A DNA stretch of 38,118 bases from Pseudomonadales bacterium (GTDB lineage: Bacteria > Pseudomonadota > Gammaproteobacteria > Pseudomonadales > Ketobacteraceae), in the NCBI GenBank assembly GCA_002701845.1, contig NZXG01000041.1, positions 25,244 through 63,361 of the forward strand, written 5' to 3'. A program made the translations under genes and the position numbers. The notes under the pieces were generated by a model, which was not told where the DNA came from, did no database searches, and was given only the letters and a program-made list of their open reading frames with translations. Below, in pieces: positions 76 through 38,118 of the stretch. Each line of letters begins with the position of its first letter. Position 1 is the stretch's first letter.

Positions 76-885
76 ATGACCGAGACCTTTTACGAGGTAA
101 TGCGCCGCCAGGGGATTACGCGTCGCAGCTTTATGAAATACTGCAGCCTCACCGCCACCGCCCTGGGCCTGGGGCCGGCCTTCGTACCCCAAATCGCCCA
201 CGCCATGGAAACCAAACCCCGCATTCCCATCCTCTGGCTGCACGGTCTGGAATGCACCTGCTGTTCGGAATCCTTTATCCGTTCCGCCCACCCCCTGGCC
301 AAGGATGTGATTCTGTCCATGGTGTCCCTGGATTATGACGACACCATCATGGCCGCCGCCGGCACCCAGGCGGAGGCCATCGTGGCGGAAACCATCGAAA
401 AGTACGACGGCAATTACATCCTGGCGGTGGAAGGCAATCCGCCGCTGAACCAGGACGGCATGTCGTGCATCATTGCCGGCAAACCCTTTCTGGAACAGCT
501 GCAGCATGCCGCTGACCACTGCAAGGCGATTATTTCCTGGGGTTCCTGTGCCTCTTACGGCTGTGTCCAGGCCGCCGCCCCCAACCCCACCCAGGCCACG
601 CCGGTGCACAAAGTGATTCGCCACAAACCCATTATCAAAGTGCCCGGCTGCCCGCCAATCGCCGAGGTGATGACGGCGGTGGTGACCTACATCCTCACCT
701 TCGACCGGATGCCGGAACTGGACCGTCAGGGCCGGCCGAAAATGTTCTACAGCCAGCGCATTCACGATAAATGCTACCGTCGCCCCCATTTTGATGCCGG
801 CCAGTTCGTGGAGAGCTGGGACGACGAGGCCGCCCGCAAGGGATACTGCCTGTACAAAATGGGCTGCAAGGGCCCCACCACCTAG
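76..885 (+). pseudogene. hyaA: [NiFe]-hydrogenase small subunit, 3'-truncated by group II intron
   Basis: This is the electron-transfer subunit of a periplasm-facing, membrane-bound uptake hydrogenase (group 1, HyaA/HoxK/HupS family). The ATG at 76 is preferred over the one at 70 because AGGGG lies about 7 bases upstream of it. Residues 1-43 form a Tat signal peptide (RRSFMK at 16-21). All six proximal-cluster cysteines typical of O2-tolerant enzymes are visible: C60, C62, C63, C158, C163 and C192, which are 17, 19, 20, 115, 120 and 149 in mature numbering. The distal cluster ligands H230, C233, C258 and C264 are also present. The frame ends after GPTT, where the family continues YNAC. The stop TAG is made of two exon bases (TA, 883-884) and the first base of the inverted intron. 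About 90 residues are lost, including the medial-cluster cysteines and the C-terminal membrane anchor, so the product cannot be functional. The intron is antisense and cannot splice from this transcript. No large subunit gene is in the window. Confidence 0.93.
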
Positions 886-957
886 TCGTGGTAGAACGCC
901 CAGTTACCCAGACGTCCCCACACAGATCCCGGCGTGCGGAACTACCGCACCGGGCTC
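885..957 (-). ncRNA. Group II intron domains V and VI (3' catalytic end)
   Basis: Reading the minus strand, bases 957-924 fold as the short conserved domain V hairpin. It begins with the AGC catalytic triad, pairs GCCCGG and GTGCGG with CCGCAC and CCGGGAT, and has a two-base-type bulge between the helices. Bases 920-885 form domain VI and end in the AY dinucleotide (AC) expected at a group II 3' splice site. This fixes the intron boundary at 885 and shows that the 3' exon is the antisense strand of hyaA. Confidence 0.82.
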
Positions 958-973
958 CTCAGTAATAACTTTG

Positions 974-2446
974 CTACCGTGCAACGGCAACACCCTTCTC
1001 AAATAACCAGAACACACGTTTCTTAGCTGCCGTAGCCGTCGCGGGCTTAGGTAGCCTCATAAGCTGTAGCAGCTGAAGGAAGCCCGTCCAGTTATAGCTA
1101 CGACGCTGACTGCGCCGATTCAACCACTTGAACAGCAACTCGATTACCATCGTGTAATAGCGCCCCACTGATTGACCATTCCCTTTCACTGCAAAGTAAC
1201 GGTAATGGCCCAGCATCTTAACTCGCAGCTCGGCTGCAAGCACGGGTAACGGTCTATTGCGATTCTGCCTTAACCACAATTTTAGCACTTGTCTCAGCTC
1301 TTTGAGCTTTGATCTGGCGGTGCGACGCATCAGTCGTGCACGCCCCTCCTGGTCTTTCCACCAGTAGTACTCAAACCCCAGGAACTTGATCCGGCGTCTC
1401 ATACTGGGGCGAAACCGACTGAAACGCGTCAGCGCCGTCTTCTCCGGTGCCACCGACAAGCCGAATTTCTTCAGTCTTGCTGGCAGGGAACCGTACAGTG
1501 CTCTGGCATCCCGATGGTTCTGGAAGGCCAGTATATAGTCGTCGGCATAACGTATCAGCAACGATCGCGCTTTCAGCTTCGGCCTGATTTTGCGCTCAAA
1601 CCAGTGATCCAGTACATAATGCAGATAGATGTTGGCCAGAATAGGGGAAATTACTCCACCTTGTGGTGTGCCCTTTTCTGGTCTGTGACTACTGCCATCG
1701 ACTTCGATCACCGGCGCTTTCAGCCACTGTTTTATCAGTCCCAATAGCGTCTTATCGTCTATGCGTTGTTCCAGCATCCGCATCATCCAGTCATGATCAA
1801 CATGATCAAAGAAACCCTGAATATCCGCCTCTACCACATAGCCAAATGGACCCCATTGAAGGTTGGCTGACAGACTTTGTGCCGCATCACCGGCCCCTCG
1901 GCCCTCGCGGTAGGCAAAGCTGCTGTCACTGAAATCCCCTTCGAAGATGGAACTCAGTATATCGCATACTGCCTGCTGGACGATCTTGTCTTCCAGTGCC
2001 GGTATCCCCAGCGGCCTTTGCTTGCCATTGGACTTTGGAATGAAGCTGCGACGTACTGCTTTGCATCGATAGCGTTTGGTTTTCAACTTCTGTTCAAGCT
2101 CGATCAGGTTCGACAGCAGGTTTTCTCCATACGCCTGCGCCGTGACCCGATCGACTCCCGCACTCGCCTTCTTGTTCAACCGGCGCCAAGCCTTGGCCAG
2201 AGCGGCCAGGTCCAGCATCCGATATAGATCTTGAAAGCGGTGCTTCGGGTGGGTGTTTGCCTTGATGGCTATCGCTTCTAGAGAGGTTGTCCCTGTTTGA
2301 TCCAGCCCGACTTTGTCCGGACAGGGTTGTCCTGTTGAAGCGGTGTTACTACTGCAAATCCCTTCATGACGTGAGCGATGTTCCTGCCCGACACTACTAT
2401 GGATTTGTCCGACTTCCTGATGGTCTTCGTTCGTCTCGTTTATCAC
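974..2446 (-). CDS. ltrA: Group II intron reverse transcriptase/maturase
   Basis: This multifunctional intron-encoded protein reverse transcribes the intron RNA and helps it splice. The RT core runs from about residue 77 to 360. It contains GTPQGGVISPILANIYL (RT motif 4 region) and the catalytic YADD box. The maturase/X (GIIM) domain follows, around FKWLNRRSQRRSYNWTGF. No HNH endonuclease is seen at the C-terminus, so insertion probably relies on reverse splicing without second-strand cleavage (inference). The assigned start is a GTG at 2446. The first 70 or so residues overlap sequence likely to belong to intron structural domains, so the true start is uncertain. The frame has no interruption, so the protein is probably active. 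Confidence 0.92.
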   Translation of the reverse strand: MINETNEDHQEVGQIHSSVGQEHRSRHEGICSSNTASTGQPCPDKVGLDQTGTTSLEAIAIKANTHPKHRFQDLYRMLDLAALAKAWRRLNKKASAGVDRVTAQAYGENLLSNLIELEQKLKTKRYRCKAVRRSFIPKSNGKQRPLGIPALEDKIVQQAVCDILSSIFEGDFSDSSFAYREGRGAGDAAQSLSANLQWGPFGYVVEADIQGFFDHVDHDWMMRMLEQRIDDKTLLGLIKQWLKAPVIEVDGSSHRPEKGTPQGGVISPILANIYLHYVLDHWFERKIRPKLKARSLLIRYADDYILAFQNHRDARALYGSLPARLKKFGLSVAPEKTALTRFSRFRPSMRRRIKFLGFEYYWWKDQEGRARLMRRTARSKLKELRQVLKLWLRQNRNRPLPVLAAELRVKMLGHYRYFAVKGNGQSVGRYYTMVIELLFKWLNRRSQRRSYNWTGFLQLLQLMRLPKPATATAAKKRVFWLFEKGVAVAR

Positions 2447-2799
2447 TTAACTACCCTACCAGTCTCCTTCTGGAACCATCAGGATCTCTCAAGTTCATGA
2501 TACATCTCTTACTGCATGCCATGACTTGATAACTCCGCCGTCTCTTCACAGCCTTGCTATAACGGCTGATCCACGTGGGCTTCGATCGCGTTACAAACCT
2601 CGCCAGACGAAACTGCCTTTCGGAGCGATACCAGTGCTTCAGGGCCACGGTGCCCTTATGGCCTACCGTATTCGCTGTGTACGCTTCACGTTGATTGTTC
2701 GACCCGTTGATAGCAGCCTTCGCCGCTGACTGGAGAGCGTTCCCTCTCCCGTTGTCTCCGCACAACGCGCAACACTCGCTAAGGGTGGCTTGCTAGACC

Positions 2800-3594
2800 T
2801 TACCCTACAGGGACTTTCACCCTGCCAGATGCATCAAGCTTCCTTGACGCACTAACGCCCTGCTTACCCCACAACAACTGGCGGGTGGCGCGACGGTTTT
2901 CCGCATTCCACAGACCATCCTGCTGTAACAGATAGCGCATTCGGTTGTGCAGCCGCAACAACAGATCCACGGTAACAAAAGCCATGGTGGCGGTGCGCTT
3001 CCAGTAGCTGCCATCGGCCTGCTGGTACAGATCAAAGCATACCGCTTTGTGCTCCACCTCTTCCAGGGCATGGTACACCAACAGTTGCCGGAACGGCTCC
3101 GCCGCCTGCTCCACCAGATCCGGGCGATGGTAGATAAACAGGTGGGCCATGGACGCAGTGAAGTGCTCCGAAGCGGCGGTCATGGCCAGCCGCGTGGTGG
3201 CGGCAATGTTGCGCCGGGCCCACTTGTTATCACGCTTGAGGCCGGCATCAAACGCCTGCATCGCCGGATACCCTAACGCAACCAACGCCTGAGTCCAGCT
3301 GTCGTGTTCACGACCGTGCATGGCCTCCTGACGGATAAACTGCTGGATCTGCTCCCGCAGCTCCGGTGCCAGGTTGTCCCGTCCCACTTCATCGCGCACA
3401 TCCCGCGCCGCGTCCATAAAAAACCGTTCGCCTTCCGGAAACAGGGCCTGCAGCGCATTGAAGAAATGGGTTTTCACCGGATCATTGTCATGCCAGTAAC
3501 GTTGCCGGCCCATGGCACCCAGATAATCGAAGCGGACTTTACGCACCAGAATCTTAAGATTGGCGGGGGTACGGACCCGGCTTATACCTAACAT
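2800..3594 (-). pseudogene. PF10118 'metal-dependent hydrolase' family protein, C-terminus replaced by intron sequence
   Basis: This belongs to the family annotated as predicted metal-dependent hydrolase (COG3687/PF10118), cytosolic and of unsettled function. Residues carry a diiron-like helix pattern: Glu in GERFF near 55, EAMHGREH near 92-99, and EEVEHK near 179-184. A good GAGGTGG ribosome binding site precedes the ATG at 3594. Native sequence ends at QGV (base 2853), where the intron begins. The last 17 residues before the stop at 2800 are read from the intron 5' end. Compared with the second family member in this window (15336-16195), about 45-50 C-terminal residues are missing, including the conserved region around YFRWNYHP. 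The intron is in sense orientation here, but splicing would join the frame to antisense hyaA, so the native protein cannot be restored. Confidence 0.85.
2853..2864 (-). other. Intron-binding sites IBS1 and IBS2 in the 5' exon
   Basis: On the minus strand the six bases before the intron are GCGTTA (2858-2853). They are fully complementary to TAACGC in the intron (2593-2588, candidate EBS1, about 260 nt from the intron 5' end). Bases AGCAG (2864-2860) are complementary to CTGCT (2716-2712, candidate EBS2, about 137 nt from the 5' end). The order and spacing match EBS2-EBS1 in domain I of IIA/IIB introns. The exon is therefore a genuine target of this intron. Confidence 0.7.
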
Positions 3595-3642: not shown

Positions 3643-5265
3643 TCAGGCCTCACCGCTGTACTGGCCCTGATACTGGTCCCGCAACTGCCGTTTCAGAAGC
3701 TTGCCGGTGGGGGTATGAGGCAGCTCATCCACAAACAACACCTCGTCGGGCAACCACCACTTCACCACTTTATCCGCCAGGTATTCCAGCATCTCCTCCC
3801 GGGTCAGACTGGCCCCCGGCTCCAGCACCACCAGCAGCAAAGGCCGCTCATCCCATTTCGGATGGGGCACCCCCACCACCGCGCATTCCGCCACCGCGTC
3901 ATGGCCAATGGCAATGTTTTCCACGTCGATGGAACTGATCCACTCACCGCCGGATTTGATGACGTCCTTGGCCCGGTCCACGATGTTCATATAGCCCTGT
4001 TCATCAATGGTGGCCACGTCGCCGGTATCGAACCAGCCATCCTGCCAGTCGGACTGGTCCTCCAGCTTATAGTAACTGCTGGCCACCCAGGGTCCCCGGG
4101 CCTGCAGCCGGCCAAAGGCTTTGCCATCCTGAGGCAGCGAATTCCCCGCGTCATCCACAATCCGCAGCTCGATACCGTAAATGGGCCGCCCCTGTTTGAC
4201 CTGCAGTTGGTAGCGCTGCGCCTGATCGAGGCTGGCCATGTAGGCGTTCATGCTGTTTACGGTGCCCATGGGTGACAGCTCCGTCATGCCCCAGGCGTGC
4301 ACCACAAACGCATTGTGTTTTTCCTGAAAGCCTTTGATCATGGACATGGGAGCGGCGGAACCGCCGATCACCACCTGTTCCACCGAGGTCATGGTGCATC
4401 GTTCTTTTTCGCAATATTGCAGCAGCCCCAGCCACACCGTGGGCACCCCCAGCATTTGCGTCACCTGCTCACTGTCAATCAGTTCATAGAGCGAGGCGCC
4501 GTCCATGCCGGCCCCCGGCAACACCAGCTTGGCACCGGCGGCGGTGGCGGCGTAGGGCACCCCCCAGGCATTGACGTGAAACATGGGCACCACCGGCAGC
4601 ACCACCGAACGGTTACCCATGCTCAGGGCCTCGCCACTGAGGGAGGCCAGGGCGTGCAATACTGTGGAACGTTGGCTGTACAAAACTCCTTTGGGATTAC
4701 CGGTAGTGCCGGAGGTGTAGCACAGGGTGGCCGCCAGGTTTTCATCCAGTGCCGGCCAGTCATAGTGGGCACTGGCCTCTTGCAACAGGGTTTCATAACA
4801 CAACAGGTCCAGTTTCGATTCCGGCATCCGCTCGGCATCCACCATCAACACCACGTGTTTCAGCTTGGGCAGCTGGTCACGGATGGCTTCAATCAACGGC
4901 ACAAACTGCAGATCCAGAAACAGCACTTCATCTTCGGCGTGATTGAGAATGTAGACGATCTGTTCGGGGAACAGGCGCGGATTCACGGTATGGAGTATGG
5001 CGCCACTGCCGGACACCGCATAATACAACTCATAATGGCGATGAGTGTTCCAGGCCAGTGTTGCCACCCGGTCCTGCTGTTTGACCCCCAGCCGGGTCAA
5101 TAGGTTGGCCGCCTGGCGCGCCCGACGGGCGGCATCAGCATAGGTATAGCGAAACAGGCCGCCTTCCGGCTTGCGACTGACGATTTCGGATTTGCGGTGA
5201 ACTTTTTCGGCATGCTGCAGGATGGAGGCAATGGACAGCTGAGTATTCATCATCAATCCGTGCAT
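3643..5265 (-). CDS. Medium/long-chain fatty acyl-CoA ligase (AlkK-like, ANL superfamily)
   Basis: The enzyme activates a fatty acid with ATP and CoA through an acyl-adenylate, in the cytoplasm or at the inner membrane face. Its 540 residues are the usual family length. Visible ANL motifs are the P-loop YTSGTTGNPKGV (about 183-194), the WGMTE motif A5 (about 324-328), GWFDTGD (about 416-422), the hinge region DRAKDVIKSGGEWIS (about 433-447) and the C-terminal catalytic Lys in PTGKLLK. GAGGAG lies about 7 bases before the ATG at 5265. Two further Met codons follow closely but have no better site. It lies downstream of the BVMO and SDR genes on the same strand after a 95-bp gap that carries a duplicated GGGTAATTGTTGTT. 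Context suggests it activates the acid product of ketone or ester breakdown, which is inference. Confidence 0.92.
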   Translation of the reverse strand: MHGLMMNTQLSIASILQHAEKVHRKSEIVSRKPEGGLFRYTYADAARRARQAANLLTRLGVKQQDRVATLAWNTHRHYELYYAVSGSGAILHTVNPRLFPEQIVYILNHAEDEVLFLDLQFVPLIEAIRDQLPKLKHVVLMVDAERMPESKLDLLCYETLLQEASAHYDWPALDENLAATLCYTSGTTGNPKGVLYSQRSTVLHALASLSGEALSMGNRSVVLPVVPMFHVNAWGVPYAATAAGAKLVLPGAGMDGASLYELIDSEQVTQMLGVPTVWLGLLQYCEKERCTMTSVEQVVIGGSAAPMSMIKGFQEKHNAFVVHAWGMTELSPMGTVNSMNAYMASLDQAQRYQLQVKQGRPIYGIELRIVDDAGNSLPQDGKAFGRLQARGPWVASSYYKLEDQSDWQDGWFDTGDVATIDEQGYMNIVDRAKDVIKSGGEWISSIDVENIAIGHDAVAECAVVGVPHPKWDERPLLLVVLEPGASLTREEMLEYLADKVVKWWLPDEVLFVDELPHTPTGKLLKRQLRDQYQGQYSGEA

Positions 5266-38016: not shown

Positions 38017-38055
38017 ATTACTATTAACCCGGCTTAGTAATATCTCTGATATAAT
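38017..38055 (+). promoter_or_regulatory. Inverted repeat and -10 box upstream of the edge transposase
   Basis: ATTACTA (38017-38023) and TAGTAAT (38035-38041) form a perfect inverted repeat around 11 bases. A consensus TATAAT lies at 38050-38055, only 6 bases before the ORF start, with no good -35 box. The repeat may belong to the left end of an insertion sequence or be an operator. Confidence 0.4.
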
Positions 38056-38061
38056 GCGCGG

Positions 38062-38118
38062 ATGACTAAAAAAATAGATACCCGCAAATTACCTTTTGAA
38101 GCCATTGAAGAAAAGCGT
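38062..38118 (+). CDS. Start of an IS630-family transposase (partial, window edge)
   Basis: Only 19 codons are in the window: MTKKIDTRKLPFEAIEEKR. The KIDxRKLxxEAxEExR pattern is the usual start of IS630-family transposases, whose N-terminal HTH follows directly. No ribosome binding site of quality is seen (CGCGG, 2 bases upstream). If correct, an insertion sequence begins between 37970 and 38061, after the diguanylate cyclase pair. Confidence 0.5.
   Translation, partial: MTKKIDTRKLPFEAIEEKR

Follow-up and report, generated by a model that had tools for sequence, protein, structure and literature searches.

At the locus studied here, a group II intron stands between a part of hyaA and a part of a PF10118 gene, and the question it raises is how one element came to be bordered by fragments of two different genes. 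The window, that is, the whole stretch of 38,118 nucleotides that was analysed, corresponds to C4:25244-63361 of the draft genome G000 of a marine bacterium (69 contigs, 4.9 Mb). Its features are collected in Table 1.

The intron and its flanking genes

The element is classed as a group II intron by its ends, its RNA core and the reverse transcriptase/maturase (IEP) that it encodes, and its splicing is predicted. The two termini, GTGCG and CGAC, agree with the 5' GUGYG and 3' AY of group II introns, and the exact ends, 1968-nt length and coordinates reported in the first-pass annotation were right. In the Rfam scan, RF00029 remained below its threshold within the window. The IEP lies above the TIGR04416 cut-off of 300 bits; PF00078 (reverse transcriptase) is its sole Pfam domain, and no endonuclease domain was reported by Pfam in this protein.

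The hyaA fragment, located on the 3' side of the intron and antisense to it, represents the N-terminal three quarters of the gene, and its PF14720 match is broken off at position 41 of 80. Matches to TIGR00391 and PF10118 confirmed that the flanks are mismatched, with antisense hyaA on one side and the PF10118 gene on the other, as had been described.

Table 1. Features of the intron and its flanks, in window coordinates.
Feature	Position	Strand	Details
Complete group II intron (predicted)	885..2852	minus	1968 nt; 5' GTGCG at 2852, 3' ..CCACGAC at 885
Intron RNA core, domains I-IV	2523..2817	minus	Rfam RF02005, 94.4 bits, E 1.7e-25, model 1-225
Putative domain V hairpin	925..957	minus	AGC triad, starts GAGCCC; fold of final 110 nt
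Putative domain VI hairpin and 3' end ..CCACGAC	885..923	minus	fold of final 110 nt
Reverse transcriptase/maturase (IEP)	974..2446	minus	490 aa, YADD present; TIGR04416 344.9 bits
Proposed EBS1, TAACGC	2588..2593	minus	intron nt 260-265; single TAACGC in intron; expected EBS1 loop
IBS1, GCGTTA	2853..2858	minus	end of 5' flank; shared by all three 5' junctions
hyaA, N-terminal part	76..884	plus	269 full codons and two bases; TIGR00391 452.4 bits
PF10118 gene, N-terminal 247 aa (five sixths)	2853..3594	minus	PF10118 229.6 bits; 5' flank of intron

Missing gene halves, intron copies and relatives

A DNA search placed the intron at three positions in the genome: the window, a second full copy at G000:C3:1007-2974, and G000:C54:1-92, a copy cut off by the contig edge. 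The further intron copies and the two missing C-termini, all proposed for a genome search in the first-pass annotation, were found on these two contigs. The C-terminus of hyaA occupies G000:C54:93-354, directly after the 92 nt of intron at the contig start, and is followed by what reads as a putative hydrogenase large-subunit gene; that of PF10118 occupies G000:C3:2975-3132, directly after the second full intron copy. When the halves are rejoined at the intron edges, a HyaA of 356 aa and a PF10118 protein of 299 aa are obtained in frame. Aligned with intact relatives (two hyaA records and six PF10118 records, two pairs among the six being the same contig twice, L016/L117 and L017/L118), the rejoined genes display zero gaps at the junction and few gaps at other residues, which argues from the alignments that the intron was inserted in both hyaA and the PF10118 gene, as had been supposed. 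The view that a single insertion is insufficient was also upheld. One insertion event is ruled out, the flanks belonging to two different genes whose other halves lie elsewhere in the same genome.

The PF10118 gene is whole in three of the five other genomes of the genus (G001, G002 and G003) and in a further Ketobacter sp. record (L018), lying between the genes on the right part of C4 and those of C3. A high-identity hyaA match occurs in two of the five. In these two, the left part of C4, hyaA and C54 form one stretch, with alignments that stop and restart within 2 bases, and the hyaA and PF10118 loci are on different contigs in both. Because the loci are separate and intact in relatives, the join of hyaA and PF10118 in the window is not ancestral. 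Gene truncation predating the arrival of the intron is ruled out, since both genes are whole in relatives; the arrangement that the first-pass annotation had set against its own reading, with the two genes adjacent and truncated without the intron, is not what the relatives carry. The intron was found in none of the five other genomes of the genus.

It had been proposed that homologous recombination between two intron copies, one in each gene, created the junction. The presence of the intron in both genes is retained from that proposal, but at least three copies are involved, so that two recombinations, or one recombination and one assembly error, would be needed. Such a real rearrangement agrees with the separate positions of hyaA and PF10118 in relatives and with the exact joins between flanks and intron edges on two contigs, the outcome expected of recombination between introns. 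However, the reciprocal junction that was predicted, with the intron between the remainders of PF10118 and hyaA, is absent from the assembly: the C-terminal part of PF10118 is joined via the intron to an attC flank, and beside the C-terminal part of hyaA the contig breaks off after 92 nt of intron.

Pattern searches allowing up to 3 mismatches recovered three 5' and two 3' intron ends, and at least one intron end is therefore absent from the assembly. Between the two full copies there are 16 differences, which are confined to nt 760-1309; nt 1-759 and 1310-1968 are the same in both. By chance, all 16 differences would fall within a given block of 550 nt with a probability of about 1e-9. This clustering could stem from gene conversion, from a second source or from smoothing by the assembler, and its restriction to one internal block is compatible with gene conversion or recombination under a rearrangement. 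Two intron variants, together with a contamination estimate of 1.63%, would also suit a DNA mixture, either of two strains or of a population with coexisting inversions over the intron, in which each arrangement would truly exist in some of the cells. Against this, both hyaA halves and the first half of PF10118 are each present as one DNA copy in the genome, 100% identical to themselves and without a second variant, and a mixture is considered highly improbable.

The third site and the shared target motif

The third insertion site lies in an integron. The region G000:C3:1-1006 is part of a cassette array, with an attC ending GCGTTAGGC, an HNH endonuclease cassette gene and a second attC, which begins with GCCTAAC and closes with GCGTTA at the intron start. 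The second site displays the R'' (RYYYAAC) and R' (GTTRRRY) motifs and the long imperfect hairpin of an attC, the intron cutting R' after GTTA; folding of its bottom strand gives one hairpin, 106-112 nt long, with an energy of -71 to -75 kcal/mol. The intron and the cassette gene point in the same direction. The cassette before the intron (G000:C3:199-892) encodes an HNH endonuclease with a homing-endonuclease-type repeat (PF01844, PF18780). The 3' flank of this copy begins with TGC instead of RRY, which does not prove that it is foreign to the attC, since locus L218 has GTTA/TGT inside an array.

All three 5' flanks in this genome close with GGCGTTA, and the proposed EBS1 (TAACGC) can form six of six pairs with GCGTTA at each of the three sites. 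At the hyaA and PF10118 sites, there is no attC-like hairpin comparable to that on C3, which fits recognition based on pairing more than recognition based on structure.

Origin of the junction

The junction in the window is probably a short-read assembly mix-up among the intron copies. Three copies would be present, one in an integron attC, one antisense in hyaA and one sense in the PF10118 gene, each having arrived through pairing of EBS1 (UAACGC) with GCGTTA and subsequent reverse splicing; GCGTTA would be the 3' core of the host's attC sites, and its presence in hyaA and the PF10118 gene would be due to chance. The assembler would have traversed the repeated intron and exited on the wrong flank, which would join the N-terminal part of PF10118 with that of hyaA, and the attC with the C-terminal part of PF10118, while the C-terminal part of hyaA would be left dangling and the flank behind the attC would be lost. 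This explanation is favoured because a three-way flank swap by an assembler needs no biological event, whereas a real permutation of the flanks needs two. Moreover, the gene halves are without decay, so that a rearrangement would require every event to have happened very recently.

The state of the assembly bears on the same point, since it is limited by repeats. Among the 83 contig ends examined out of 138, 64 have sequence in common with another of the ends read. These end repeats reach 80-99 nt inward in 46 of the 64, less in 3 and more in 15, and did not recur in the 102,163 interior bases examined. The break of C54 at 92 nt into the intron fits this pattern. The last part of the window (38020-38118) is the end of C4 and lies inside a repeat common to the ends of C2, C5, C12, C51, C59 and C63. 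The shortest contig measures 11,218 bases among the 45 whose lengths were available, and small contigs therefore look to have been dropped from the assembly. Three integron integrases in G000 score above the model cut-off (none in 14 control genomes), each within about 500 bases of a contig end and on the side where an array is expected (C26, C35 and C61; L291-L293), so that the cassette arrays, together with the 3' flank of the attC intron copy, are absent from the assembly. Outward of all three integrases, the contigs close in one common stretch starting GTTAAACGTGGCTGG. This stretch is probably attI with a common first cassette, which would account for the unassembled arrays.

To link a left flank of the intron to a right one, 759 and 659 identical bases have to be crossed, which this assembly failed to do at its other repeats. 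At a 2-kb repeat, however, assemblers break more commonly than they pass wrongly, which counts against an assembly error. Furthermore, two full and distinct intron copies are written out, which is unlike a cautious assembler facing an unresolved repeat, and with a long-insert library the assembled joins could be right. GC skew, from four scans of the available pieces, was -0.047 on the left and -0.035 on the right of C4; it shows no conflict at the join, is uninformative and gives no argument for an assembly error. Taken with the repeat-limited contigs and the two events that it needs, a real rearrangement is rather unlikely. An assembly mix-up of intron copies, an alternative that the first-pass annotation had itself raised, is held with good confidence to be the better fit.

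Target choice across the intron clade

Relatives of the reverse transcriptase were sought in 369 genomes of the class and 390 of the order, and matches came from 11 and 7 genomes respectively, its own included in both counts; in a phylum sample of 398 genomes, matches were confined to its own genome. Among 63 loci of viral contigs no close relative was found, and the best, at 35-40% identity, were taken as the outgroup. Reverse transcriptases of the same clade were present at eleven sites in ten other genomes (L200, L211, L201, L202, L205 and L215-L220). In a tree of 28 sequences, 12 clade rows separated from 16 others, six of which are loci with an unplaceable insertion site, with a support of 100/99 and in 100% of 200 bootstrap trees.

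With the three sites of its own genome included, the target ends in GTTA at 12 of 14 clade sites, in GCGTTA at seven of these, and in GCGTCA at the other two; six clade introns are without a GTGYG start and their edges were set by alignment to sisters, so that some circularity is possible in these counts. Watson-Crick pairs between EBS1 and target, with the EBS1 of relatives picked by eye in the matching loop, number six at eight sites, five at five and four at one. At L220, the change of the target from GTTA to GTCA is accompanied by an EBS1 of UGAC, while at L216 the target is GTCA without a matching change in EBS1. In the outgroup, none of the 10 sites with a placeable 5' end closes with GTTA or GTCA (17 loci, the 7 unplaceable ones being uncounted).

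Several introns of the clade lie in cassette arrays and in cassette orientation. At L217 and L218, the cassette behind the intron is bordered at either end by homologous attC sites, both of which close with GCGTTA. An attC-like site lies downstream at L211 and L215, and at L200 a short attC-like hairpin ends at GTTA. The attC evidence covers these five loci, and no attC is established for L201, L202, L205, L216, L219 and L220. A strict attC detector returned three matches in 50,499 clade-locus bases, all at L211 (two distinct sites, one on both strands), and none in 75,794 control-locus bases. No cassette array was found beside the G001 integrase, but the detector used there likewise fails on the attC closest to the beginning of C3. 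The relaxed detector is noisy, returning 28 sites on the two strands of 89,646 control bases, and was used only where a second homologous attC was visible by eye. Two further observations concern neighbouring introns. At L216, a second intron-like 5' end follows directly on another GCGTCA at about 4070-4150, downstream of the first intron, and genome G252 (L200 at 211-457; L212 and L213) holds further, more distant RF02005 introns, including one that lies some 500 bases upstream of the intron at the GTTA site.

On balance, we lean towards a non-IIC group II intron lineage whose EBS1 (UAAC..) is tuned to the 3' core of attC (GTTA). The attC sites of arrays would serve as its homing sites through RNA-DNA pairing with the top strand rather than through recognition of the bottom-strand hairpin, and in this Ketobacter-like genome the intron would also have escaped the integron into hyaA and the PF10118 gene at chance GCGTTA sites.

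Comparison with known elements at attC

According to the part of PMC7923331 that was available, IIC-attC introns insert in the bottom strand of attC, against the cassettes and at TTGT/T, and have a CGC triad in domain V. The present intron resembles this group (S.ma.I2 type; PMC7923331) in its lack of an endonuclease domain and in its insertion at attC, but differs from it in its cassette orientation after GCGTTA and its AGC triad. In G000, domain V has AGC in place of CGC, and the C3 copy follows GCGTTA in the cassette direction and not a bottom-strand TTGT/T.

Other parallels are found outside class IIC. The same excerpt describes a CL1/IIB1 intron that directly follows an attC and has the direction of the cassettes, and also reports truncated class E introns from a CALIN (PMC7923331). 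These elements of halophile integrons and CALINs, UHB.I2 (CL1/IIB1) and H.ha.F1/F2 (class E/IIB), are likewise non-IIC and located in cassette arrays, and UHB.I2 shares both the orientation and the position just after attC (PMC7923331). Compared by description only, UHB.I2 differs in its ends, UUGCG..GU, and its poorly conserved exons, and H.ha.F1/F2 in being 5'-truncated (PMC7923331); for neither does that excerpt report that EBS1 matches the attC core. Two Shewanella integrons also contain non-IIC introns, of the types CL1 and class E, which are mentioned in the accessible text of PMC9229058 with no account of their target site. The IS1111-family insertion sequences mentioned there are also mobile elements specialised on attC (PMC9229058), but they are DNA transposons and not introns. 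In the portion of PMC4424553 consulted, attC is one of three target types, and homing is tied to all lineages except class C. The intron and integron literature covered, which was mainly open-access and had the key IIC-attC papers outside its scope, contained no account of an EBS1 that matches the core of attC.

Implications

Introns present in several copies can give false gene junctions in draft genomes, which matters whenever rearrangements are read from short-read assemblies. If the junction is an assembly mix-up, hyaA would be broken by an antisense intron that, judging from its orientation, could not be spliced from hyaA mRNA, and the PF10118 gene would carry a sense intron whose splicing might restore the gene. 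If the proposed target choice of the clade is true, integrons would be exploited under two unrelated group II target rules, namely the folded bottom strand recognised by IIC-attC introns and pairing with the attC core.
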